A DNA stretch of 64,000 nucleotides from Campylobacter showae CSUNSWCD (GTDB taxonomy: Bacteria; Campylobacterota; Campylobacteria; Campylobacterales; Campylobacteraceae): NCBI RefSeq assembly GCF_000313615.1, contig NZ_AMZQ01000008.1, forward strand, positions 62,001-126,000. Direction: 5' to 3'. Under the pieces are notes generated by a model. It searched no databases and was not told where the DNA came from. It was given only the letters and a program-made list of their open reading frames with translations. This document shows positions 6,301 through 30,544 of the stretch, piece by piece. Numbering within the stretch: the stretch's first letter is position 1; every line of letters begins with the position of its first letter. Both the position numbers and the translations under genes were made by a program.

Positions 6301-7668
6301 ATGTTACTTTTGAACCCCGTTTTTTATTACGAAAAGATCCGCGAAAAATTCGCCAACTCCTACCTCGCCGAGGACACGACGCAGACCATCGTCGGCATCG
6401 ACTGCGAGTATATCAGCAGCGAGCAAACCGATTTTGCGGGGCTTAAGAGCTATTTTAAAGCTCAAAAATCGGGTGCGCCTTTTGCGGGACTGTTTGGAGT
6501 GCTAGGCTACGGCGGAATAAAATATTTTGAAAAAATACCCGAATTTAACGCCTCACAGTACGATTTCCCAGACTTTTTCTACGCTAACGCCCGCGCCTAC
6601 CTACACTTTGATAAAAATAGCAAAATTTACAGCTTTTACGGCGACCGCGAGCGGTATTACGATTTTCTCGTTAAATTTAGCACAGATGACGAAGCGGCCG
6701 CCAAGGAACAGCGCGCAAAAAGGCAGTGCAAATATAAAATTTTAACCGATTTAGAGGGCGAAAAAGCGCATTTTCTAAAGATCGCAAAGCGCGCCAAAGA
6801 GTATCTAAAAAGTGGCGACGTCTTTCAAGTCGTGCTAAGCGAACAGCTAAAACTAGCCTCGGATATGGATAGCCTAGACTTCTACCGAGCCTTGAGCGAG
6901 GCAAATCCGAGCCCGTATATGTTTCACTTTCCGACCCCGTACGGCGACGTCGCGGGCTCTAGCCCCGAGCTAGTCTGCGAGATCAAAGAGGGCAAGATCT
7001 ACGTCGCACCTATCGCAGGCACTCGCGGACGCGGCAAAGACGCGATCGAGGACGTCGCGCTCGAGCGCGAACTGCTAAACGACGAAAAAGAGCTAGCCGA
7101 GCACAAAATGCTCATAGACCTTGCTCGCAACGACATCGGCCGCGTCAGCAAGCCAAAAAGCGTCGCGGTCAAAAACGCCATGCGCATCGTGCGCTACGAA
7201 AGCGTGATGCACATCGTAAGCGACGTCTACGGCGCAAAATCAGACGATCTAGACGCATTTGACGCGGTCGGCAGCATCTTTCCCGCAGGCACGCTCAGCG
7301 GTACGCCGAAAATCCGCGCCATGGAGATCATCGCCGAGCTTGAGTCGTATAAGCGCAACGCCTACGGCGGCGGCATCGGATTTTTCCACTTTAATGGCGA
7401 TGCGCAAATGGCGATTTTGATTAGAAGCGCGATATTTGCACGCAAATTTGACGCTAAATTTGATGCTGGCAGGCATAACCCGCACCTTGACGGAGCAAAC
7501 GAGCCAAATTTAGAGGGTGGCGAGCTCGATGGAAATTTTGCCGAAATTTTCGTGCAGGCTGGAGCGGGTATCGTGATAGATAGCGTGCCGGAATACGAAT
7601 ATAAAGAGATTTGCAAAAAACGCGCCTCGGTGCTAAATGTGTTCGCAAAAAACGCAAGGGAGATTTGA
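6301..7668 (+). CDS. trpE: anthranilate synthase component I
   Basis: A 455-residue chorismate-binding enzyme that makes anthranilate from chorismate with ammonia supplied by TrpG. Conserved catalytic segments are plain: GSSPE, IAGTRGRG, LIDLARNDIGRV, PAGTLSGTPKIRAMEII, YGGGIGF and QAGAGIV. The N-terminal region is short, and the usual LLES tryptophan-feedback motif is not obvious (YLAED occurs near residue 42). An extra loop of roughly 25 residues rich in Lys-Phe, Asp and Asn (about 381-415) separates the beta strand before QAGAGIV from the core. It is followed by a structured repeat rather than directly by trpGD. Confidence 0.95.
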   Translation: MLLLNPVFYYEKIREKFANSYLAEDTTQTIVGIDCEYISSEQTDFAGLKSYFKAQKSGAPFAGLFGVLGYGGIKYFEKIPEFNASQYDFPDFFYANARAYLHFDKNSKIYSFYGDRERYYDFLVKFSTDDEAAAKEQRAKRQCKYKILTDLEGEKAHFLKIAKRAKEYLKSGDVFQVVLSEQLKLASDMDSLDFYRALSEANPSPYMFHFPTPYGDVAGSSPELVCEIKEGKIYVAPIAGTRGRGKDAIEDVALERELLNDEKELAEHKMLIDLARNDIGRVSKPKSVAVKNAMRIVRYESVMHIVSDVYGAKSDDLDAFDAVGSIFPAGTLSGTPKIRAMEIIAELESYKRNAYGGGIGFFHFNGDAQMAILIRSAIFARKFDAKFDAGRHNPHLDGANEPNLEGGELDGNFAEIFVQAGAGIVIDSVPEYEYKEICKKRASVLNVFAKNAREI

Positions 7669-7691: not shown

Positions 7692-8096
7692 TAAAGGGGT
7701 GGGGGCTTGAATGGCGCTCTGCTAGCAGCTCTCAAAGAGAGTGCAAGCACAAGGCGAGGCAAAGCCGAAGCAAAAGAGCCCCCTTCCCCCTTTAATCCCT
7801 CTCCCCCTACGACGTGAGAGGTTGCTGCACTGCGTGCAGGTTAAATTTGGCGCTATTGCGCCGCAAATTTAAATTTACATTTTCAAGATGTGGGTCTCGG
7901 TGACCCAAATTTGCAAATTTGAGTTCAAAAAGTTAAGGCGAAGTATTTTATAGAAACATTTTGCTTTGCAAAAACGCTACGCTTGTTTTGAGATGGATTT
8001 GAATGTTGCGATGAAATTTTCGACCGAAGATAGAACATGTAGTTCATCGAGGGAGAAAATTTTTAGCTCATTCAAAGGCACTCAAAAGACAAGCCG
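7692..8096 (+). repeat. structured dispersed repeat, copy 1 (candidate RNA)
   Basis: This 405-bp non-coding element recurs at 18809-19213 in the same orientation and with the same length; 7725-7779 is identical in both copies. Hairpins in order: an outer stem TAAAGGGG/CCCCTTTA (7692-7699 with 7787-7794) enclosing CTGC/GCAG and CTCTC/GAGAG (7729-7741); CTGCAC/GTGCAG (7825-7839); TTAAATTTG/CAAATTTAA with inner GGCGC/GCGCC (7841-7872); TGGGTC/GACCCA (7891-7907); and a 3' arm GAGaTG..TTTGAATG / CATTCAAA..CACTC (7990-8083) with an inner AAATTTTC/GAAAATTT stem. The arm sequences differ from copy 2 but pairing is kept. It sits between trpE and trpGD, 15 bases before the trpGD start, so it is probably transcribed with the trp genes. 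Whether it acts as a free RNA, a leader or a mobile element is unknown. Confidence 0.75.
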
Positions 8097-8111: not shown

Positions 8112-9725
8112 ATGATTTTATTGATAGACAATTATGACAGTTTCGTCTTCAACGTAGAACAATATCTACGCGAACTAACCGACGAAGAAGTACGCTGCGT
8201 GCGCAACGACAAAATCACGCTAGACGAGATCCGCAGGCTAAATCCGAGCAAAATCGTATTAAGCCCGGGACCAAAACACCCGCAAGATAGCGGTATCTGC
8301 CTAGAGATTTTAAAAAGCGACATCGTCGCGCCAGTGCTTGGTATCTGCCTCGGGCATCAGGCGATCGGGCTCGTTTACGGCGCCAAAATCAAACGCCTAG
8401 AAAAGCCCTATCACGGCAAAACTTCGCTCATAAAAGTCAGCCGCAAAGAGCCGCTATTTACGGGACTGCCGGACGAATTTGAGGTCATGCGCTACCACTC
8501 GCTTTACGTGGACGAGCTACCGTCAAATTTAGAGGCTTTGGCCGTGAGCGAGGATGGCGTAGTGATGGCGCTTAGCGCGAAAGATAGGCCGATTTTTGGT
8601 ATCCAGTTTCACCCCGAGAGCTACTTCACGCAGTACGGCAAAAAAATCATCGAAAATTTCATAAACTATGAAGCCACGCCTGCGGCAGAGGTCGCCAAAG
8701 AACCCAAAATCCGCCCGCTCAAGCCGTTTCTAATCAAGCTGCAAGAAAACGAGCGGCTAGACGACCGCGACTTTGAGCAAATTTGCGAAATCATCGCAAG
8801 CAAAGAGTACGAGATCACGCAGCTAGCGGCACTTTTGGTGCTAATCAGCGAAAAAAGCCTCTATCCGCAAAGCCTCGCAAGCCTCGCCAAAAACATCCTA
8901 AAATACTCGCAGACCTACCGCGATCCATCGCCGATGATCGATCTTTGCGGCACGGGCGGTGACGGCTTTAAGACGATAAATATATCAACCAACGTCGCGT
9001 TTATCTTAGCGAGCCTTGGCGTCAAGGTCGCAAAGCACGGCAATAAGGCCGTTTCTAGCAAATCAGGCAGCTCAGACGTGCTGGAAATTTTGGGCGTTCA
9101 TAGCTCAAATTCGCTCCTACGACAGCGAGAGCTGCTAAACGATAAAAATTTGGCCTTTTTCCACGCGCCGTTTTTCCATCCGTTAGTTGGCGAAGTGCGC
9201 GAAGTGCGCCAGCGCCTAGGTATCCGCACGGTTTTTAACGTACTTGGCCCGCTGCTAAATCCAAATTTGGCGCTCAAAAATCAGCTCGTGGGCGTCTATC
9301 ATAAGCCTGTTTTACGCCTCTATGCCGAGACGCTGCAGCTGCTGGGACGCGAGCGAGCGCTGGTGGTTCGCGGCGAGGATGGGCTAGACGAGATCAGTCT
9401 ATGCGATGAGACGCGCGTCGTGGAGCTGCGCGGCGGCCAGATCAGCGAGTACAGCATCACGCCCGAGCAGTTTGGCTTCAGACGGGCGTTTCACAGCGAG
9501 ATCGAAGGTGGCACGCCTGAGCAAAACGCTGAAATTTTAAAGCAAATTTTAAAAGGCGAGTTGGACGGACCGAAATTTGACGTAGTCGTGCTAAACGCGA
9601 TGTTTGCGCTCTACACAGCAGGCGTCGCGGACAGTCCCACGCAGGCCAAAGAGGTCATCCTGGACGCGATAAAAAGCGGTAAAGTTTATCGCTATTTCGA
9701 GGACTACGTGCGAGGCGTAGCGTGA
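8112..9725 (+). CDS. trpGD: bifunctional anthranilate synthase glutaminase / anthranilate phosphoribosyltransferase
   Basis: A 537-residue fusion. Residues 1-190 are a class I glutamine amidotransferase with the catalytic triad visible (GICLGHQ with Cys79, and His167/Glu169 in FHPES). This domain delivers ammonia to TrpE. Residues from about 200 on are anthranilate phosphoribosyltransferase, with the PRPP loop DLCGTGGDG (277-285) and the GNKAVSSKSGSSD segment. The same fusion occurs in C. jejuni. The ribosome site AAAGGAAAG lies directly behind the structured repeat. The stop overlaps the trpF start (GTGA), implying coupled translation. Confidence 0.96.
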   Translation: MILLIDNYDSFVFNVEQYLRELTDEEVRCVRNDKITLDEIRRLNPSKIVLSPGPKHPQDSGICLEILKSDIVAPVLGICLGHQAIGLVYGAKIKRLEKPYHGKTSLIKVSRKEPLFTGLPDEFEVMRYHSLYVDELPSNLEALAVSEDGVVMALSAKDRPIFGIQFHPESYFTQYGKKIIENFINYEATPAAEVAKEPKIRPLKPFLIKLQENERLDDRDFEQICEIIASKEYEITQLAALLVLISEKSLYPQSLASLAKNILKYSQTYRDPSPMIDLCGTGGDGFKTINISTNVAFILASLGVKVAKHGNKAVSSKSGSSDVLEILGVHSSNSLLRQRELLNDKNLAFFHAPFFHPLVGEVREVRQRLGIRTVFNVLGPLLNPNLALKNQLVGVYHKPVLRLYAETLQLLGRERALVVRGEDGLDEISLCDETRVVELRGGQISEYSITPEQFGFRRAFHSEIEGGTPEQNAEILKQILKGELDGPKFDVVVLNAMFALYTAGVADSPTQAKEVILDAIKSGKVYRYFEDYVRGVA

Positions 9726-17712: not shown

Positions 17713-18027
17713 TTAATATTTAAACTCGGCTCTTGCGCCAACCGTCGCATTTTTGACGATCTCGATTTTTAAAATTTCCATTTTTAAAAAGCTAAGCGAG
17801 TTAAATTTTTCCTTCAACTTTTTTGCGCAAATTTCAAGCGAACTCTCCACGGTGCCAAATTTTTCTTGCGCGTAAATTTCTTCGATAAAATTTATCATTT
17901 CCACGTAGTCTATAAACTCGCCGCTTTCAAATTCCGCGCTAACTCTTACCTTTTGCGGCGTCACGCGCTCAAAATCAAGTAGCCCAATGATCGTGCTAAA
18001 CTCGTAGTCTCTGATAATCGTCGTCAA
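17713..18027 (-). CDS. folB: dihydroneopterin aldolase-like protein
   Basis: A 104-residue FolB/FolX-type T-fold protein: the family opening with an IIGLLDFER core, a YVEMINFIEE segment and a VGARAEF end. It would convert dihydroneopterin in folate synthesis. It begins with TTG overlapping the plsY stop (TTGA). The same gene pair follows cosR in C. jejuni. Confidence 0.82.
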   Translation of the reverse strand: MTTIIRDYEFSTIIGLLDFERVTPQKVRVSAEFESGEFIDYVEMINFIEEIYAQEKFGTVESSLEICAKKLKEKFNSLSFLKMEILKIEIVKNATVGARAEFKY

Positions 18028-18638
18028 ATTACGCGCTTTTCTTGCCCTGTTATGAGGCGTTTTATGTTTGGCAGATGCTTGTAAACGACCAAAAACGCGA
18101 TCAAAAATATCGGCGCATAGGAGTTGATGTCGGGAATCTGCGGCTGCAGCGCAAAAGTCGCTACGATAAACGCCACAAGCGCGGCTAGAGAAGCGAGCGA
18201 TGAAATTTTAAGCAATTTGCCGACGACAAACCAAACCCCAAGTGCGATAGCGATCTCAAGCGGTAAAAAAACCGCCAAAACGCCAGCACCCGTGGCTATG
18301 CCCTTGCCGCCTTCAAATTTTAAAAACGGCGAATAGCAATGCCCAAGCACCGAAAGTACCGCCATCGCCCAAAGCGTCGCTGGAGCAAGGCCTAAAAACT
18401 TCGCGATTAAAATCGGCAAAACGCCCTTTAAAACGTCGCAAACGACGGTTAAAATCGCGATCTTTTTAGCGAGTTTGGGGTCTTTTTGCTTTAGCACGCG
18501 CAAAACGTTCGTCGCGCCGATACTGCCGCTACCTTCGCTTCTGATGTTTACTCCGCCGAAGATATACGCCAAAATCACGCCCGATGGGATGCCGCCTAGC
18601 AGATACGCCGTAGCATAAGCTATCAAATTTTCGTTCAT
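18024..18638 (-). CDS. plsY: acyl-phosphate:glycerol-3-phosphate acyltransferase
   Basis: A 204-residue membrane protein with five or so hydrophobic helices. It carries the PlsY motifs GSGSIGATNVLR (near 36-47) and GGKGIATGAGV (near 109-119). It transfers acyl groups from acyl phosphate, the product of PlsX (at 24650), to glycerol-3-phosphate in the first step of phospholipid synthesis. Confidence 0.95.
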   Translation of the reverse strand: MNENLIAYATAYLLGGIPSGVILAYIFGGVNIRSEGSGSIGATNVLRVLKQKDPKLAKKIAILTVVCDVLKGVLPILIAKFLGLAPATLWAMAVLSVLGHCYSPFLKFEGGKGIATGAGVLAVFLPLEIAIALGVWFVVGKLLKISSLASLAALVAFIVATFALQPQIPDINSYAPIFLIAFLVVYKHLPNIKRLITGQEKRVI

Positions 18639-18808
18639 TTTTTATCCTGATTTTTGTTTCGATTTCGCAATATTAATTAAATTCGGCTGATTTTTTGATA
18701 AATCGGTCATTTTGGAGGACGGTAAATTTGTAAATTTTACCCACCGAGACCTGCACCGCAAAAATGCTAAATTTGGTTTTGTCAAATTTGGATTTTAGTC
18801 TTTCTTGT

Positions 18809-19213
18809 TAAGGGGGAAGGGGCTTGAATTGCGCTCTGCTTTGCAGCTCTCAAAGAGAGTGCAAGCACAAGGCGAGGCAAAGCCGAAGCAAAAGAGCTCC
18901 CTTCCCCCTTAACGATCCCCCAACCCCTACAACGTGAGAGGTTGCTGCGCTATGCGCAGGTTAAATTTGGCGCCGTCGCATCGTAAATTTGAATCAAATT
19001 TGATGTTTTCAAGATACGGGTCTCGGCGACTCAAATTTGCAAATTTAAACGTAAAACGATAAGGCGAAGTATCGTGAGATGATTTTTCGAGTTTTCTGCT
19101 TCGCAAGCTCGCAGCTGCAAGCAGAAGAAGCAAAATTGAGCGTGCGCTAGGCATATAGCCTGCGGAGCGAAAATTTTTGCGAAATCTCGAAAAAGCACTC
19201 GCGAGACAAGCCG
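18809..19213 (+). repeat. structured dispersed repeat, copy 2 (candidate RNA)
   Basis: Second copy of the 405-bp element at 7692. The outer stem is a perfect 13 bp here (18809-18821 with 18899-18911). Then come CTGCGC/GCGCAG (18945-18959), TTAAATTT/AAATTTGA (18961 onward), GGGTC/GACTC (19018-19032) and the 3' arm GAGaTG..TTTTCGAG / CTCGAAAA..CACTC (19076-19200). The inner 3' domain (19094-19185) has its own hairpin TTCTGCTT/AAGCAGAA (19094-19126) and no visible similarity to copy 1. The wobble pairs in both copies are G-U only if the + strand is RNA; on the other strand they would be A-C mismatches. The element ends six bases before the stop codon of the HerA-like ATPase gene, to which it is antisense in orientation. 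Confidence 0.75.
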
Positions 19214-19219
19214 CTAAAT

Positions 19220-21529
19220 TTACTTCCAAAGAAGATAGAGTTTTTCGTCGTATATATCGCTACTCTTCGGACTAACCTCCACCTCCGTCACCTCCACGTT
19301 TTGCACATCATTTTTGGCTTTTAGCGCGCTCGCGTCTTCTTCAAATTTCGCCATCAGCTCCTCGATCTGCGTATTTAGCTGGGCGACTTCTTGCTCGCTT
19401 AGTTTGACGTCGCTGCGCTCTTTTAGCACGCTATTTGCCGAGCGCGCGGAGGTTGCGACTTTGCCGATGTTGCCGCTACTTAGCAGCCCTTTGCCAAAAA
19501 TCGCGCCCAAAATGCTAGCTCCCACCGAGATCGCGGTCTCGATACCTTTGCTCTTGAAGTCTCGCTGCTCTTTTTCCAGCTTTGCGACCGAGCGGTTTAG
19601 TTTCTCCTCCAATCGCGCTTTTTGCTTATCAAATTCAGCCGTGAGCTTAGCCGTTTGCGCCTCTAAAATTTCGTTGCATTTGTCAGCCAAACGCACGTAA
19701 AACTCCTCCTTGCTCTCGCCCGGCGCCGAGCTTAAATTTAATGCACTAAAGAGCCTAAGCTTGTAGTTTCTATAGATAAATTCTTTGAAATTTTTGGTTA
19801 GCTCTTTGAAATTTTTAGCTCCGGCGATAAAGCCCGGTAGCGGCGCGTAGGAGAGCTTAAAATTTGGCTCCGAAACCGCGGTAAAATGCATATTTTCGCT
19901 AGCTTCGCTCCAGTCGGCGCTTTTTTGAGCTTCATCCAGCCTTAGCGTGAAATTTACCTCGCGAACCTCGTCAAGCCCCTTTTTGGCGTCGTAAAATCGC
20001 ACTTTGGCTTCACCGTAAAGATATCCCTCTAGCTCGCCGCCCTCCTGCAAATTTGAGCTTGCGGCGTAAATTTGAGCGATATCCGGCGACAGCACCGGTT
20101 TGGCGGCGAAATTTGAGCTTTTTGCCGGGCTTGACCCGCTCAAATTTGACCCGCTCTTTTGCTCTTTCATCAAATTTGAAATTTGCTCGCGACTAAGCGG
20201 TCCTTTGAGATAGCTCAGAGCCCAGCGCGTCGAGATGACGGACAGCCCGTCCTCGTGGATGTTTTTTAGTAGGAAGTTGCGCTTTTGCAAATTTGAGATG
20301 AGATTTTCTATCTCGCTTTTATCCATCGCAGAGCCCGCAAGCCCCGTCATACCGTCGATCACGCGCGCTTTGTCCTGCGCAGCTTGTAAGCGCCCGATGA
20401 ACCACGTACCGATGTTGCTAAGGCCTTTGTAATCAAGATCGACCGGGTTTTGGGTGCTCAGTATCACGCCAAGGCCGTGCGCGCGGGCTTGCTTGAGTAG
20501 CGTTAGCATCGGGGTTTTAGACGGCGGGTTGCCGTTTGGCGGGAAAAATCCGAAAATCTCGTCCATATAAAGCACCGCGCGAAGCGAGCTCGTACCCTCG
20601 GTCTTGCGCATCCACGCGATAATCTCGTTTAGCAGCAGCGTCACGAAAAACATCCTCTCGCTGTCTTTTAGGTGCGAGATGGTAAAGATATTGCACTTTG
20701 CCTTGCCGTTTGCGTTAAAAAGCATCTTTGAGATGTCTAGCCGCTCGCCGTTTAGCCACGCGCGAAAATCAGGGCTTGCAAGCAGCGTGTTGATCTTAAC
20801 CGCTAGTTTCATGCGCTCACTACTCGGGTAAAATTTCTCCACGTCAAATACACCGATCTTAGCAAACGGAGGCGTCGCGATAAAGCCGATGAGCTCCTCT
20901 AGGCTCACGTCCGCGCCCTGGCTAAATTTAAGGGTAAAAATGTTTGAAATAAGCAGGTGTTCTTTTGAGTTTACGTCGTTTTCTATGCCCACGAGCGAGA
21001 GCACGGAGCTGGCCAGGGAGCCTACGTATTCGCTAAACTCCTCGCTGCCTGCGTCTAAATTTGGGCGCGCAAAATCGCCCAGCAGCGCCACGCCGACGCC
21101 GCTACTGCTCTTTGGCGTGTAAATTTTTAGCTCGGCACTATCTTTAAAAAGTCCCACGCGCTCTAGGCTTTGAAACGAGCCTTCGATGCCTTTTGCCCAC
21201 GTCTGCGCTTCGCTAGCAGCAAATTCATCCACGCTCATGCCTTTGTTTTGCGCTTCGTTTTCATCGACGTAGGGCGCAAAATCCTGCGCGCGCATCTGCG
21301 GGAAGGCCAAAGCGAGGTTTGTCATATCGCCCTTTGGGTCGATGATAAAGGTCGGGATGTTATCGATGCAGGCTTCTTCTAGGATGCCGATACCAAGACC
21401 AGTTTTGCCGCTACCGGTCATGCCGATGATGGCTGCATGCGTCGTGAGGTCTTTGTTTTTGTAAAAAAACGGCTCTTTGTCTTTGAGGCCGACGTAAAAT
21501 AGCTTTAAATTTTCCTGAATCGTTTTCAT
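19220..21529 (-). CDS. HerA/FtsK-like P-loop ATPase with coiled-coil tail
   Basis: A 769-residue ATPase. Walker A is GMTGSGKT at 36-43 and is followed by FIIDPKGDMTNLALAFP. A Walker B-like stretch (AVLYMDEIFGFFPP) and a sensor segment (LGVILSTQNPVDLDYKGLSNI) lie near 330-380. This is the layout of bacterial HerA/DUF87-type and conjugation-coupling ATPases. The C-terminal third has a coiled coil (about 620-665), a glycine/serine-rich hydrophobic patch and another coiled coil. No nuclease (NurA) or secretion partner is adjacent, so the substrate is unknown. It stands alone, with copy 2 of the repeat at its 3' end. Confidence 0.78.
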   Translation of the reverse strand: MKTIQENLKLFYVGLKDKEPFFYKNKDLTTHAAIIGMTGSGKTGLGIGILEEACIDNIPTFIIDPKGDMTNLALAFPQMRAQDFAPYVDENEAQNKGMSVDEFAASEAQTWAKGIEGSFQSLERVGLFKDSAELKIYTPKSSSGVGVALLGDFARPNLDAGSEEFSEYVGSLASSVLSLVGIENDVNSKEHLLISNIFTLKFSQGADVSLEELIGFIATPPFAKIGVFDVEKFYPSSERMKLAVKINTLLASPDFRAWLNGERLDISKMLFNANGKAKCNIFTISHLKDSERMFFVTLLLNEIIAWMRKTEGTSSLRAVLYMDEIFGFFPPNGNPPSKTPMLTLLKQARAHGLGVILSTQNPVDLDYKGLSNIGTWFIGRLQAAQDKARVIDGMTGLAGSAMDKSEIENLISNLQKRNFLLKNIHEDGLSVISTRWALSYLKGPLSREQISNLMKEQKSGSNLSGSSPAKSSNFAAKPVLSPDIAQIYAASSNLQEGGELEGYLYGEAKVRFYDAKKGLDEVREVNFTLRLDEAQKSADWSEASENMHFTAVSEPNFKLSYAPLPGFIAGAKNFKELTKNFKEFIYRNYKLRLFSALNLSSAPGESKEEFYVRLADKCNEILEAQTAKLTAEFDKQKARLEEKLNRSVAKLEKEQRDFKSKGIETAISVGASILGAIFGKGLLSSGNIGKVATSARSANSVLKERSDVKLSEQEVAQLNTQIEELMAKFEEDASALKAKNDVQNVEVTEVEVSPKSSDIYDEKLYLLWK

Positions 21530-26767: not shown

Positions 26768-26790
26768 ACAAAAAATCACGGAAGGCAAAA

Positions 26791-29325
26791 ATGGTAGTCA
26801 GTAAAATCTACGAAATCAACTCTTGCGACGATATGGAGCTGGGCGTTAAACGCTCTACGAAATTAAACTTCAAACTGTGCTACGATGACGATAAGCCGGT
26901 TAACGCCATAGTTTTTATAGTGCCTGGATGCGGCGGCGACGTCGATAAAGCATATAGAGACCACCTAGCCGAATTTACTGCGAGAGAATTTAACGTAGCT
27001 GTGATCAATGTAGATTATCACCATATCTATAACAGATTAGTTACGGGCGCTAGATACTACATGGACGAATTTGATCAAGAAATTTTAAGAGAAAAATGTC
27101 GAGAAATAAACCTGCAATTAGGCGGAGATTTAAGCTCGCTAAAAAATTTCGATAAGCTAAACGGCGTCTTGTCTGCGGTTAGTAACTATATAGACAACAA
27201 TAAAAATAGCGGAGCATTTCCAAAAGATTTTGTTTTAAATTTATCCCTTACGATTGATCCGGCAAAAGACGAATACCAAAATTTCGGCATTATGCAGGCG
27301 CAGGATTTGATAAACGCCCTACTTTTTATAAAGACAAATGCGCCGTTTAAAGTGATTAAAAATTTAAACGAACTACCAGTCGTCATGATCGGTAGCTCAC
27401 ACGGAGGCTATCTATCGCATATGGCCGCCAAGATCGCTCCGTGGCTCATAGACGGCATCATAGATAACAGTAGCTACGCCAAGTATCCGCTTAGGATCGT
27501 GGGATTTGGTAAGGAGCTTGACTATATGAATCACTGCTGCTCATCAAACGATATGCTTTTTAAACATATAAATTTTTTCATCTCCGACAAGACGCTTTGG
27601 ACCTTAAAAGATGGCTCCGATAAGAGATTTATGCCAGCGCACGAAAAGATACGTTATATTTTAAATTTAGACCACGTAAAAACCCAAAGCAAATATCCAA
27701 AGCCGATTTATCTAAGCTATCACTATGCCGGAGACGACATCGCTCCTATAGCTGATAAATCGGAACTTTATAACGAATTTAACGTCTGTGGCATAGATGC
27801 GACATTAAAAATAATAAAAGACGAAAGCGAGCTTGACGGTAAATTTATCAAATCGCTAACTCACGGCTTTGATATGTCTATAAAAACGCTGATCTCAAAA
27901 GAACTTCCGCCGATGTTAACCAAGATTGCAGCTCGCCCTAAACAACCTTGCGAGGATAAAAGCATAACCTATATCTCGGAAAATTTAGAGTATAAATTTT
28001 TTGAATCTAACGATAAAATCAATCTACAAGTTTCAAAAATATGGCAAAACGGCACGGTAGTTAAAAAAACGTATAAAATCCACTCCTGCGACGATACCGA
28101 GCTTAATATAAAGCGCGAAAGCCTGCTAGAGTTTAACCTTTGCTTTGATACCAAAAAGCCGGTCTCGTCAATAGTTTTTATAATCCCTGGCTACGGAGGA
28201 GACGCAGACAGCAACTACCGCGAGCACTTAGCGCAGTTTGTCGCGAGCGAATTTAGCGTAGCCGTAGTAGGCGTAAACTACCACTGTATCGGCGATAGAC
28301 CGCAAACAGGAGCGACGATATTTTTTGACGATTTAGATAGATCGATATTAAAAAAAGAATGCGCCAGGTGTGGCATAGAGCTCCCGGAAAATTTAAGCGT
28401 AATCGATACGCAAACCCTGCTTGATATCGACAATCTAATAGACGCAAGAAAACGCGATAAGACAGTACCTCAAGACTTGTCGCTTAAACTATCAATTTCC
28501 CTTCAACCGACTAAAAACGAATATCAAAATTTCGGCATTATGCAGGCGCAGGATTTGATCAATGCGCTACTTTTCGTAAAAGCCAACGCTCCTTTTGAGT
28601 GCGCAACCGACATAAACGACCTACCAGTCGTCATGATCGGTAGCTCGCACGGAGGCTATCTATCACATATGGCCGCCAAGATCGCCCCGTGGCTTATAGA
28701 CGGCGTCATAGATAATAGTAGCTATGCGCTAGCCCACTGGCCTTTTATCGGCTTTGGCAAAGAGATAGATTATATGAAATATTACAGCGGTTACACCAGC
28801 GAATGCTATCACAATATCGAGCTTTATTTATTCGACAAGACGCATTGGACGCTAGACAAGGCTTCGCCGGCTTATTTTTCCAAGTCGAGGAAATATATAA
28901 GAGAAATTCTAATGCCGCAACACCTCAAAGTCCAAAGCGGCTATAAAAAGCAAATTTATACTAGCTATCATTACGCTTATGACGATTTTTACGCTCCGGC
29001 TAGCGAAAAACAACGACTCTACGACGAACTGAAAAATTTAGGTTACGACGCTACTCTAAATATAATAGAAAACGAAAGTCAGCTTGACGGTAAATTTATT
29101 AAAACGCTAACGCACGGTTTAGATATGTCGATAAAAACGCTAATCTCAAAAGAGCTTCCGCCGATGCTGGCTAAAATCACAGCTCGACCGAAACAGTCTT
29201 GCGAGGATAAAAGCATAAGTTACGTTTCAGACGATTTAGAATATAAATTTTTTGAAGCGAACGACAAGATAAATTTAGAGATAAAAGAACAAAATCTACC
29301 GCAGCAAAATCATGATAATAAATAA
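26791..29325 (+). CDS. double DUF2920-type alpha/beta-hydrolase-fold protein
   Basis: An 844-residue protein made of two homologous halves, about 1-415 and 423-844. Each opens with a Y-I-SCDD-EL--KR beta strand, an oxyanion-type VFI-PG-GGD turn, the motif QNFGIMQAQDLINALLF, a nucleophile elbow GSSHGGYLSH (Ser203 in half 1), a WLIDG--DNSSYA stretch, and a late FIK-LTHG-DMSIK histidine (His358). The pattern fits the DUF2920 family of Campylobacter and Helicobacter, which I link from memory to the multicopy '617 family' of C. jejuni. No signal peptide is seen. Activity and substrate are unknown. It overlaps the next, single-unit homologue by 14 bases. Confidence 0.75.
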   Translation: MVVSKIYEINSCDDMELGVKRSTKLNFKLCYDDDKPVNAIVFIVPGCGGDVDKAYRDHLAEFTAREFNVAVINVDYHHIYNRLVTGARYYMDEFDQEILREKCREINLQLGGDLSSLKNFDKLNGVLSAVSNYIDNNKNSGAFPKDFVLNLSLTIDPAKDEYQNFGIMQAQDLINALLFIKTNAPFKVIKNLNELPVVMIGSSHGGYLSHMAAKIAPWLIDGIIDNSSYAKYPLRIVGFGKELDYMNHCCSSNDMLFKHINFFISDKTLWTLKDGSDKRFMPAHEKIRYILNLDHVKTQSKYPKPIYLSYHYAGDDIAPIADKSELYNEFNVCGIDATLKIIKDESELDGKFIKSLTHGFDMSIKTLISKELPPMLTKIAARPKQPCEDKSITYISENLEYKFFESNDKINLQVSKIWQNGTVVKKTYKIHSCDDTELNIKRESLLEFNLCFDTKKPVSSIVFIIPGYGGDADSNYREHLAQFVASEFSVAVVGVNYHCIGDRPQTGATIFFDDLDRSILKKECARCGIELPENLSVIDTQTLLDIDNLIDARKRDKTVPQDLSLKLSISLQPTKNEYQNFGIMQAQDLINALLFVKANAPFECATDINDLPVVMIGSSHGGYLSHMAAKIAPWLIDGVIDNSSYALAHWPFIGFGKEIDYMKYYSGYTSECYHNIELYLFDKTHWTLDKASPAYFSKSRKYIREILMPQHLKVQSGYKKQIYTSYHYAYDDFYAPASEKQRLYDELKNLGYDATLNIIENESQLDGKFIKTLTHGLDMSIKTLISKELPPMLAKITARPKQSCEDKSISYVSDDLEYKFFEANDKINLEIKEQNLPQQNHDNK

Positions 29326-30544
29326 AACATACGAGATACCCTCCTGCGACGACGTAGAGCTTGGCGTAAAGCGAGATTCGCTACTTGAGTTTAAGCTTTG
29401 CTACGATGATGAAAAGCCCGTTAGAGCCCTAGTTTTCATAGTGCCTGGGCTTGGCGGCGATGCGAACGAAAACTATAGAGAGCATTTAGCGCAGTTCGTA
29501 GCTAGCGAATTTAACGTAGCGGTAGCTAGCGTGAACTACCACTGTATCGGCAACAGACCGCAAACGGGAGCGACGTATTTTTTAAACGATTTAGACAAAA
29601 TCATCCTTAAAAACAAATGCTCGAAAATCGGTATAGAAATCCCAAGCGATATCAGCTACGACGCGCTTTCGGTGCTGGATGACTACTTGGGCAATATAAA
29701 ATCAAGCGGCGGTTTGCCGAGCGATTTTAAATTAGAAATATCCGTAACGCTGCAACCGACCAAAAACGAGTATCAAAATTTCGGCGTTATGCAGGCCCAA
29801 GACGTGATAAATGCCGCGCTTTTTATCAAGGCAGATCCGCCGTTTAAATCCGCGACCGACATAGACGAGCTACCCGTAGTCCTAGTCGGTAGTTCGCACG
29901 GCGCCTACATAAACGCCTTAACGGCCAAATTTGCGCCGTGGCTCGTAGACGGTCTCATCGACAACAGCAGCTACGCGAAGCTAAACTGGGAACTAATAGG
30001 CCTAGGCAAAGAGGCGGATTATCTCAAATTTCGCGAATACTCGACCGATATATATTTTAAAAATATCAAAATTTACGTCTTTACCAAAACGATGTGGACG
30101 CTACTGGATAAATCCTCGCCTCGATATTTCTCGCAAGCGCGCGAAGATATACGAAACGCCCTAGACGCCGCGCATCTAAAAGCCCAAAGCGAGTATCCAA
30201 AGCCTATCTATGTCGGCTACCACTGCGCCGTAAACGACCACTGCGCGCCGCCCGATGAGAAAGTGCAGCTCTACGAGGAGCTACGCAAACTCGGCTTTGA
30301 CGCAACCTTGCATATGATAAAAGATGAGAGCGAGCTTGACGGCAGGTTTCTAAAAAAGCTAACGCACGGCCTAGAGATGTCTATCAAGCTTTTGATCGCC
30401 AAGGAGCTGCCGCCGATGCTAGAAAAGATAGCATCTCGCGAGAAGCAAATTTGCGAGAGTAAAAGCATAAGCTATTGCTCGGACGGGCTGGAATATAAAT
30501 TTTCAGAGGCAAACGGTAAGATAAATTTGGAGATAAAAAGATGA
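29312..30544 (+). CDS. single DUF2920-type alpha/beta-hydrolase-fold protein
   Basis: A 410-residue third unit of the same family, in a different frame and overlapping the double gene by 14 bases. It has the SCDD strand, the PGLGGD turn, QNFGVMQAQDVINAALF, the nucleophile elbow GSSHGAY (Ser195) and the LTHGLEMS histidine. It is clearly a tandem duplicate of the halves upstream. No homopolymer tract suited to phase variation is visible at its start or at the junction. Confidence 0.75.
   Translation: MIINKTYEIPSCDDVELGVKRDSLLEFKLCYDDEKPVRALVFIVPGLGGDANENYREHLAQFVASEFNVAVASVNYHCIGNRPQTGATYFLNDLDKIILKNKCSKIGIEIPSDISYDALSVLDDYLGNIKSSGGLPSDFKLEISVTLQPTKNEYQNFGVMQAQDVINAALFIKADPPFKSATDIDELPVVLVGSSHGAYINALTAKFAPWLVDGLIDNSSYAKLNWELIGLGKEADYLKFREYSTDIYFKNIKIYVFTKTMWTLLDKSSPRYFSQAREDIRNALDAAHLKAQSEYPKPIYVGYHCAVNDHCAPPDEKVQLYEELRKLGFDATLHMIKDESELDGRFLKKLTHGLEMSIKLLIAKELPPMLEKIASREKQICESKSISYCSDGLEYKFSEANGKINLEIKR

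Follow-up and report, generated by a model that had tools for sequence, protein, structure and literature searches.

The two long stem-loops found between genes in a 64,000-nt stretch of the Campylobacter showae CSUNSWCD genome (contig NZ_AMZQ01000008.1; hereafter the window) are probably copies of a dispersed, non-autonomous mobile element of Campylobacter, a mosaic of stem-loops that is selected as a folded single strand. As judged from model matches and alignments, the same repeat family includes intervening sequences (IVSs) of the 23S rRNA genes in five genomes, a kinship newly found here. The parts of the two window copies and their neighbouring genes are the following:

6301..7668, + strand: trpE (chorismate-binding enzyme, PF00425), upstream of copy 1
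7692..8095, + strand: copy 1 of the element; trpE and trpGD flank it on the same strand
7935..8095, + strand: type I 3' domain of copy 1 with its nested hairpin (covariance model R1, 86.1 bits, E 5.6e-19 over 7973-8095)
7950..7986, + strand: nested hairpin insert of copy 1, with a counterpart in the element at 23S rRNA helix 45 in genome G019 (from the alignment; limits by eye)
8112..9725, + strand: trpGD fusion (PF00117 and PF00591), downstream of copy 1
18024..18638, - strand: plsY (PF02660), neighbour at the 5' side of copy 2
18723..18790, - strand: inverted centre-module fragment upstream of copy 2 (29-nt match at 18723-18751, E 0.003; remainder by eye)
18807..19212, + strand: copy 2, mosaic stem-loop element, between plsY and the HerA-like gene, both on the minus strand
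18807..18913, + strand: 5' arm of copy 2, a long hairpin whose base pairs GTTAAGGGGG with CCCCCTTAAC and encloses a variable hairpin (from fold and letters)
18915..19060, + strand: centre module of copy 2 with a GGGTCTCGG core (limits approximate)
19061..19212, + strand: type I 3' domain of copy 2 (R1, 76.7 bits, E 1.1e-16)
19096..19126, + strand: insert of copy 2, a hairpin nested in its type I domain and missing from many other copies (limits by eye)
19220..21529, - strand: HerA-like ATPase (PF01935), neighbour at the 3' side of copy 2

Both copies are intergenic. Copy 1 ends 16 nt before the start of trpGD, and copy 2 ends 7 nt from the stop codon of the HerA-like gene. In their alignment of ~410 nt, part of the 5' arm is near-identical and the 3' part is strongly diverged. 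Frames of at least 80 aa overlap them only on the minus strand, as mechanical calls of 102 aa (copy 1, partial) and 100 aa (copy 2).

A full element consists of a hairpin arm of variable tip on the 5' side, a centre module, and on the 3' side a domain of either type I (~121 nt) or type II (~118 nt). By eye, domains of both types start with AAGGCGAAGTAT and end with GACAAGCC, and each type has a recurrent internal loop in which GAA faces RA. The base of the type I stem (GGC/GCC) constitutes a short terminal inverted repeat. Small hairpins are nested in the domains, as in both window copies, and the arms of the subfamilies differ as blocks. The 5' arm exists at other places in shorter and longer forms, with stems of the types TTAAGGGGGAA and TAAAGGGGGTG; a comparison of nine such stems revealed changes on both sides at some positions. 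A terminator-like AAAAAACAACC hairpin lies ahead of the 5' arm at all nine places with its pattern (18 rows, each place entering once per strand). Centre-module fragments in the opposite orientation adjoin several elements (window 18723-18790 and loci L003, L006, L008, L014 and L027), and the inverted fragment beside the plsY-gap element is, by eye, also found in G005, G021 and G023.

In the C. showae CSUNSWCD genome, copy 2 has at least 54 BLAST places (40 of the 144 candidates scored), and 50 places match the covariance model of the 3' domain. Three close relatives contain at least 65, 67 and 78 BLAST places (40 candidates scored per genome). With 24 candidates scored per genome and this genome included, model matches were found in at least 44 of 48 same-genus genomes and in at least 57 of 150 genomes overall, from at least 6 of 47 genera; R1 gave no match in G006, G008, G010 and G026. 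An exact DNA pattern was retrieved in seven stretches, from C. showae CC57C, C. troglodytis and ruminant Campylobacter MAGs. No publication on these Campylobacter repeats was found in the open-licence literature.

In general, 23S IVSs are segments that RNase III cuts out of the transcript, and only some of them encode the S23/IVS protein. The model scored three equal matches in each of G003 and G024, and following these up revealed a match within the 23S rRNA gene. A 23S search gave matches in 10 of 12 genomes (none in G016 and G104), and in five of the ten with 23S genes the IVSs contain the type I domain. In total, 17 R1 matches of 54 to 104 bits lie within the 23S genes of G003, G005, G019, G024 and G112, all of them antisense. 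In G003, G005, G019 and G024, all three operons have a helix 45 insert of 225-277 nt that contains an antisense type I domain, and in G112 two of three operons have one of 223 nt. The helix 45 loop is 22 nt in C. showae CSUNSWCD (one operon), G021 and G023. R1 found no match in the 141-146-nt helix 45 inserts of G073 (locus L231) and G084 (L230), in six of six operons. G005 has a further such insert in the helix 25 region of all three operons; its helix 25 and helix 45 inserts are related, both being antisense type I domains (952-1071 and 1900-2019 of L229, minus strand). The names helix 25 and helix 45 are our assignment, based on position and on comparison with the E. coli sequence.

Each of the six inserts tried matches non-rRNA loci, with 20 to 65 BLAST hits per insert (in 0.92 Mb of partly overlapping loci). 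The best match between an insert and an intergenic copy has an E value of 3.5e-25, and identity reaches 82% over 117 nt. On a tree of 90 domains and 120 columns, midpoint-rooted, with unsettled bootstrap and window copy 2 left out, a branch with support 100/99 separates five insert domains from all others. In the alignment, the G019 insert and window copy 1 share a nested hairpin that matches in position and sequence. Like the element, the IVSs are stem-loops of patchy presence, with the type I domain lying within the inserts of five genomes; the window copies differ from them in being situated between protein genes, and thus outside 23S helix loops, and in having a 5' arm and a centre module. 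Helix 25 and helix 45 inserts have been described in Campylobacter with fragmented 23S rRNA, in some species and some operons only, and in none of 10 C. concisus isolates (PMC2801512). By term search, that paper mentions neither origin, transposition, repeats nor evolution, and PMC4990558 calls the origin of 23S IVSs unclear, with transposition as one hypothesis.

Covariation in the domain stems, together with the conserved internal loops, supports selection on the fold. In a MAFFT alignment of 34 type I domains, pairing over 20 basal pairs is kept in 97.2% of 679 cells, and nine pairs change on both sides. The covariation score of 0.355 compares with 0.138 in shuffled and at most 0.102 in slid alignments, and none of 500 shuffles reaches it. 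The 16 type II domains behave similarly, with 99.4% of 335 cells paired over 21 pairs, 11 pairs changed on both sides and a score of 0.388 (0.151 shuffled, at most 0.087 slid, reached by 0 of 500 shuffles). These MAFFT tests apply to chosen basal pairs only. One measure, the number of further pair types, did not exceed the shuffles, being reached by 225 of 500 in type I and 102 of 500 in type II. The pattern agrees with that in an alignment of 92 matches, which was fitted to the model and is biased towards it. The compensatory base changes that the initial annotation had noticed between the two window copies are thus part of a covariation that persists in alignments extending beyond them.

The individual stem arms were compared letter by letter. 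In the 3' stem, copy 1 pairs TTTGAATG at 7998-8005 with CATTCAAA at 8069-8076, and copy 2 pairs TTTTCGAG at 19084-19091 with CTCGAAAA at 19186-19193; the four arms lie exactly at the coordinates given earlier, and both pairings are perfect reverse complements. Likewise, CTGCAC/GTGCAG is confined to copy 1 and CTGCGC/GCGCAG to copy 2, as had been proposed. The imperfect GGGTC/GACTC pairing is that of copy 2, copy 1 having GGGTC/GACCC. Copy 1 has the outer stem TAAAGGGG...CCCCCTTTA, copy 2 GTTAAGGGGG...CCCCCTTAAC. The arms TTAAATTT and AAATTTGA of a further, putative pairing are present as well.

These differences had been presented as changes from one copy to the other. Pairing is indeed kept, but the copies are not sisters altered pair by pair. 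Copy 1 is nearest to L170 (88% over 112 nt) and copy 2 to L183, another copy in the same genome (96.7% over 152 nt). Their nearest groups are separate on the tree, in which copy 2 itself is not included, and each copy has its own nested hairpin insert. The four changed pairs thus reflect a comparison across old lineages or subfamilies, each copy being nearest to a different group.

For both copies and on both strands, the fold is better than that of any of the 100 dinucleotide shuffles (z -7.5 and -6.8 for the + strand, -6.1 and -4.9 for the - strand). Good folding of both strands is what an imperfect palindrome would show, with the + strand somewhat ahead. The strands can be told apart by the wobble pairs, which are G-U on one strand and A-C on the other. 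Among type I pairs predicted on both strands, 50 G-U stand against 13 A-C (22:8 by columns), and among those of type II 24 against 8 (12:5 by columns).

The direction of the neighbouring gene was then taken into account. In 91 distinct contexts, 63 domains are antisense to the neighbour at their 3' side, as is window copy 2, 20 are sense and 8 have no called neighbour. These contexts include orthologous sites across species, so that the insertions are not independent, and R1 also caught a few type II domains among them. The neighbouring ORFs are mechanical calls (at least 120 aa, longest first), and two copies (L061 and L098) are misplaced by an ORF overrunning the start codon. The G-U:A-C ratio is 71:19 in antisense copies and 25:4 in sense copies, both counted without two of the 38 pairs, namely a consensus U-G and a mismatched A-G; with these two restored, it is 152:25 across 85 distinct non-rRNA domains. 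In the five rRNA domains of the alignment, the polarity is absent (G-U 3, A-C 2). The data support a wobble polarity of the + strand, whichever way the neighbouring gene runs.

An antisense copy is represented in the host transcript by its minus strand, and selection on such transcripts would give the opposite bias. Since the antisense copies keep the + bias, the host transcript is not the source of the polarity. The initial reading of a folded RNA read from the + strand is supported in part, as to a selected fold and to the polarity of that strand (G-U over A-C); that the strand is read as RNA is one possibility. From the sequences, the fold seems to be selected on a single + strand produced at some other step, either as its own RNA or as ssDNA, in which G-T pairs are tolerated as well.

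These results also bear on an explanation at the level of DNA alone, which is unlikely. The repeat would be a palindrome spread by a DNA-acting enzyme, its arms kept matched via cruciforms or template switching, with no role for RNA. Good folding on both strands, the block-wise differences between subfamily arms and the missing polarity in the rRNA domains would all fit. However, arm copying would erase mismatches, and the asymmetric loops (GAA/RA next to GGC/GCC, and the A-G mismatch) are by eye largely conserved in the 34 type I and 16 type II domains. The excess of G-U over A-C argues against it as well, although an ssDNA intermediate of the + strand could still be involved.

The position of the copies relative to genes is well defined. 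Of the 83 copies whose neighbour was called, 70 have their 3' end within 27 nt of its stop or start codon. For converging neighbours, the stop codon is found -14 to +23 nt from the domain 3' end in 55 of 63 cases (exactly 1 nt in 16); for co-directional ones, the start lies at -12 to +27 nt in 15 of 20. Distances at the 5' side range from 5 to 1332 nt; as they were measured from the type I domain and include the 5' modules, they provide no clean control for the 3' distances. Ribosome-binding sites (RBSs) were read by eye. Selection alone could be sufficient to place the 3' ends at gene boundaries.

Individual sites were followed across species. In five of five close species an element ends immediately ahead of trpGD, and in four of them both flanking genes are on the locus; the 3' subfamilies differ between species, and the 5' arm of G021 appears inverted (by eye). 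The plsY gap is occupied in all four loci with both genes, and the G030 contig ends inside the gap. In more distant same-genus genomes, R1 matched none of the 50 loci around trpGD (25) and plsY (25). The HerA-like match is there 58-68 nt from plsY in 21 of 25 loci and ~840-880 nt away in L129-L132, and trpE is not upstream on the locus in any of the 25 distant trpGD loci. Different subfamilies thus occupy one site in sister species, and copies from the same site are not all grouped together on the tree. Such site histories look like repeated insertion, or recombination between copies. A clean pair of empty and filled sites, in which a target-site duplication like that of MITEs would be visible, was not obtained at the plsY and L187 loci compared.

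Two other sites were observed in passing. The L187 hotspot (loci L251-L280, found via L187:1001-2122) carries, in some genomes, type I and II domains arrayed in a single orientation, some of them truncated (by eye); in others, a terminator-like hairpin or other genes are found there instead. In L204-L207, L209, L210 and L212, a type I domain (~1501-1623) lies just ahead of the RBS of a gene starting MRVLTGL, presumably trpS, with two different sequence types among the seven loci.

Insertion into hairpin loops was considered as a general rule. Over 89 of the 91 contexts, the flanks contribute -5.80 kcal/mol of stem extension, and shuffled pairs -5.82 kcal/mol. This chance level of flank complementarity argues against such a rule, though the rRNA loops and a few loci resemble it.

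The placement behind genes might suggest a host-owned RNA module at gene ends, acting as terminator, stabiliser of mRNA 3' ends or RNase III processing site. Such a module would account for the 55 of 63 antisense copies whose 3' end is close behind a stop codon and for the terminator-like hairpin ahead of the 5' arm; by eye, three loci without the element (L256, L259 and L260) have a terminator-like hairpin at the same place of the L187 locus. The conservation of sites in close species could also be compatible with a host function. Nevertheless, this explanation appears slightly less probable still than the DNA-level one: in antisense copies, selection on the transcript predicts G-U pairs on the minus strand and the opposite was found, copies inside 23S rRNA have no such use, and the element content at one site varies between species. 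A cis-acting trp leader RNA, or another single-function regulator, is highly improbable despite the elements before trpGD and before the putative trpS, since ~50 copies occur at many loci, 63 of 83 are antisense to their neighbour, the 25 distant trpGD loci have neither an R1 match nor an upstream trpE, and Rfam at the gathering threshold gave nothing for the window and 17 element loci.

The mobile-element reading would involve the following steps. The family would spread non-autonomously, its + strand having to fold while single-stranded, as its own transcript or as ssDNA, in order to be recognized by a mobilising enzyme. Copies would survive at the least harmful places, between genes and in rRNA loops. 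Where transcripts read through them, the long hairpins are probably RNase III substrates, as the rRNA intervening sequences are. A more specific version can be proposed only tentatively: the Campylobacter 23S IVSs could be settled copies of a still-active element that moves as a folded single + strand, places its 3' end against stop codons or RBSs and depends on a mobilising enzyme whose kind has so far not been associated with repeats of this sort.

Known RNA families and mobilisers were also searched. Rfam at the gathering threshold gave no match in the window and 17 element loci, weak hits (E 0.02-10) being hairpin look-alikes, and in seven further loci it gave LSU rRNA alone, in one of them. 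Mobilisation of the REP/RAYT or IS200/IS605 kind was rejected, as the Y1 transposase domain (PF01797) gave no match in any of the 37 same-genus genomes searched (matches in 10 of 60 genomes overall). The 23S IVS protein (PF05635) was rejected as a mobiliser on the same grounds, with 0 of 37 same-genus genomes, C. showae CSUNSWCD included. Carriage by a plasmid or phage found no support, copy 2 having no match in plasmid and phage collections.

In comparison, NEMIS/Correia in Neisseria and ERIC in enterobacteria are likewise intergenic palindromic repeats. To our knowledge, neither has type I or II domains, 3' ends at stop codons or a 23S rRNA form, and they are set apart here by description. 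BOX of Streptococcus pneumoniae and the NIME arrays of Neisseria are modular mosaic repeats between genes, as is the element, with different modules, sequences and hosts (again by description). Class C group II introns are structured RNA elements near terminators; the empty Rfam result for the window and 17 loci distinguishes the element from them. Instead of a domain V or an intron-encoded protein, the window copies show no Rfam hit and, from 80 aa upwards, just the two mechanical frames. REP/BIME sequences with RAYT are also palindromic, intergenic and numerous per genome. In contrast to REPs of 20-40 bp (PMC3733652), the element has domains of ~120 nt, and no Y1 transposase gene was found in the 37 same-genus genomes. 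Repeats of the NEMIS/Correia and ERIC kind are co-transcribed with their neighbours and can form RNA hairpins (PMC1590033), and Correia elements can be bound and cleaved by RNase III (PMC2649163). In the accessible text of PMC1590033, a stem-loop survey of 40 genomes, Campylobacter is mentioned only as C. jejuni, and the mentions of Campylobacter in the available part of PMC5217627 concern Shine-Dalgarno motifs.

With the family, the transposition hypothesis for IVSs gains a concrete parent, present in ~50 copies in the C. showae CSUNSWCD genome, and a host group for strain comparison. The family further provides a large natural collection of covarying structures, and elements at gene boundaries could influence the mRNA ends of numerous Campylobacter genes. 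Elsewhere in the window, three diverged tandem repeats of ~1250 nt each were observed at 26790-30544, where the frame 26791-29325 matches DUF2920 in two stretches.
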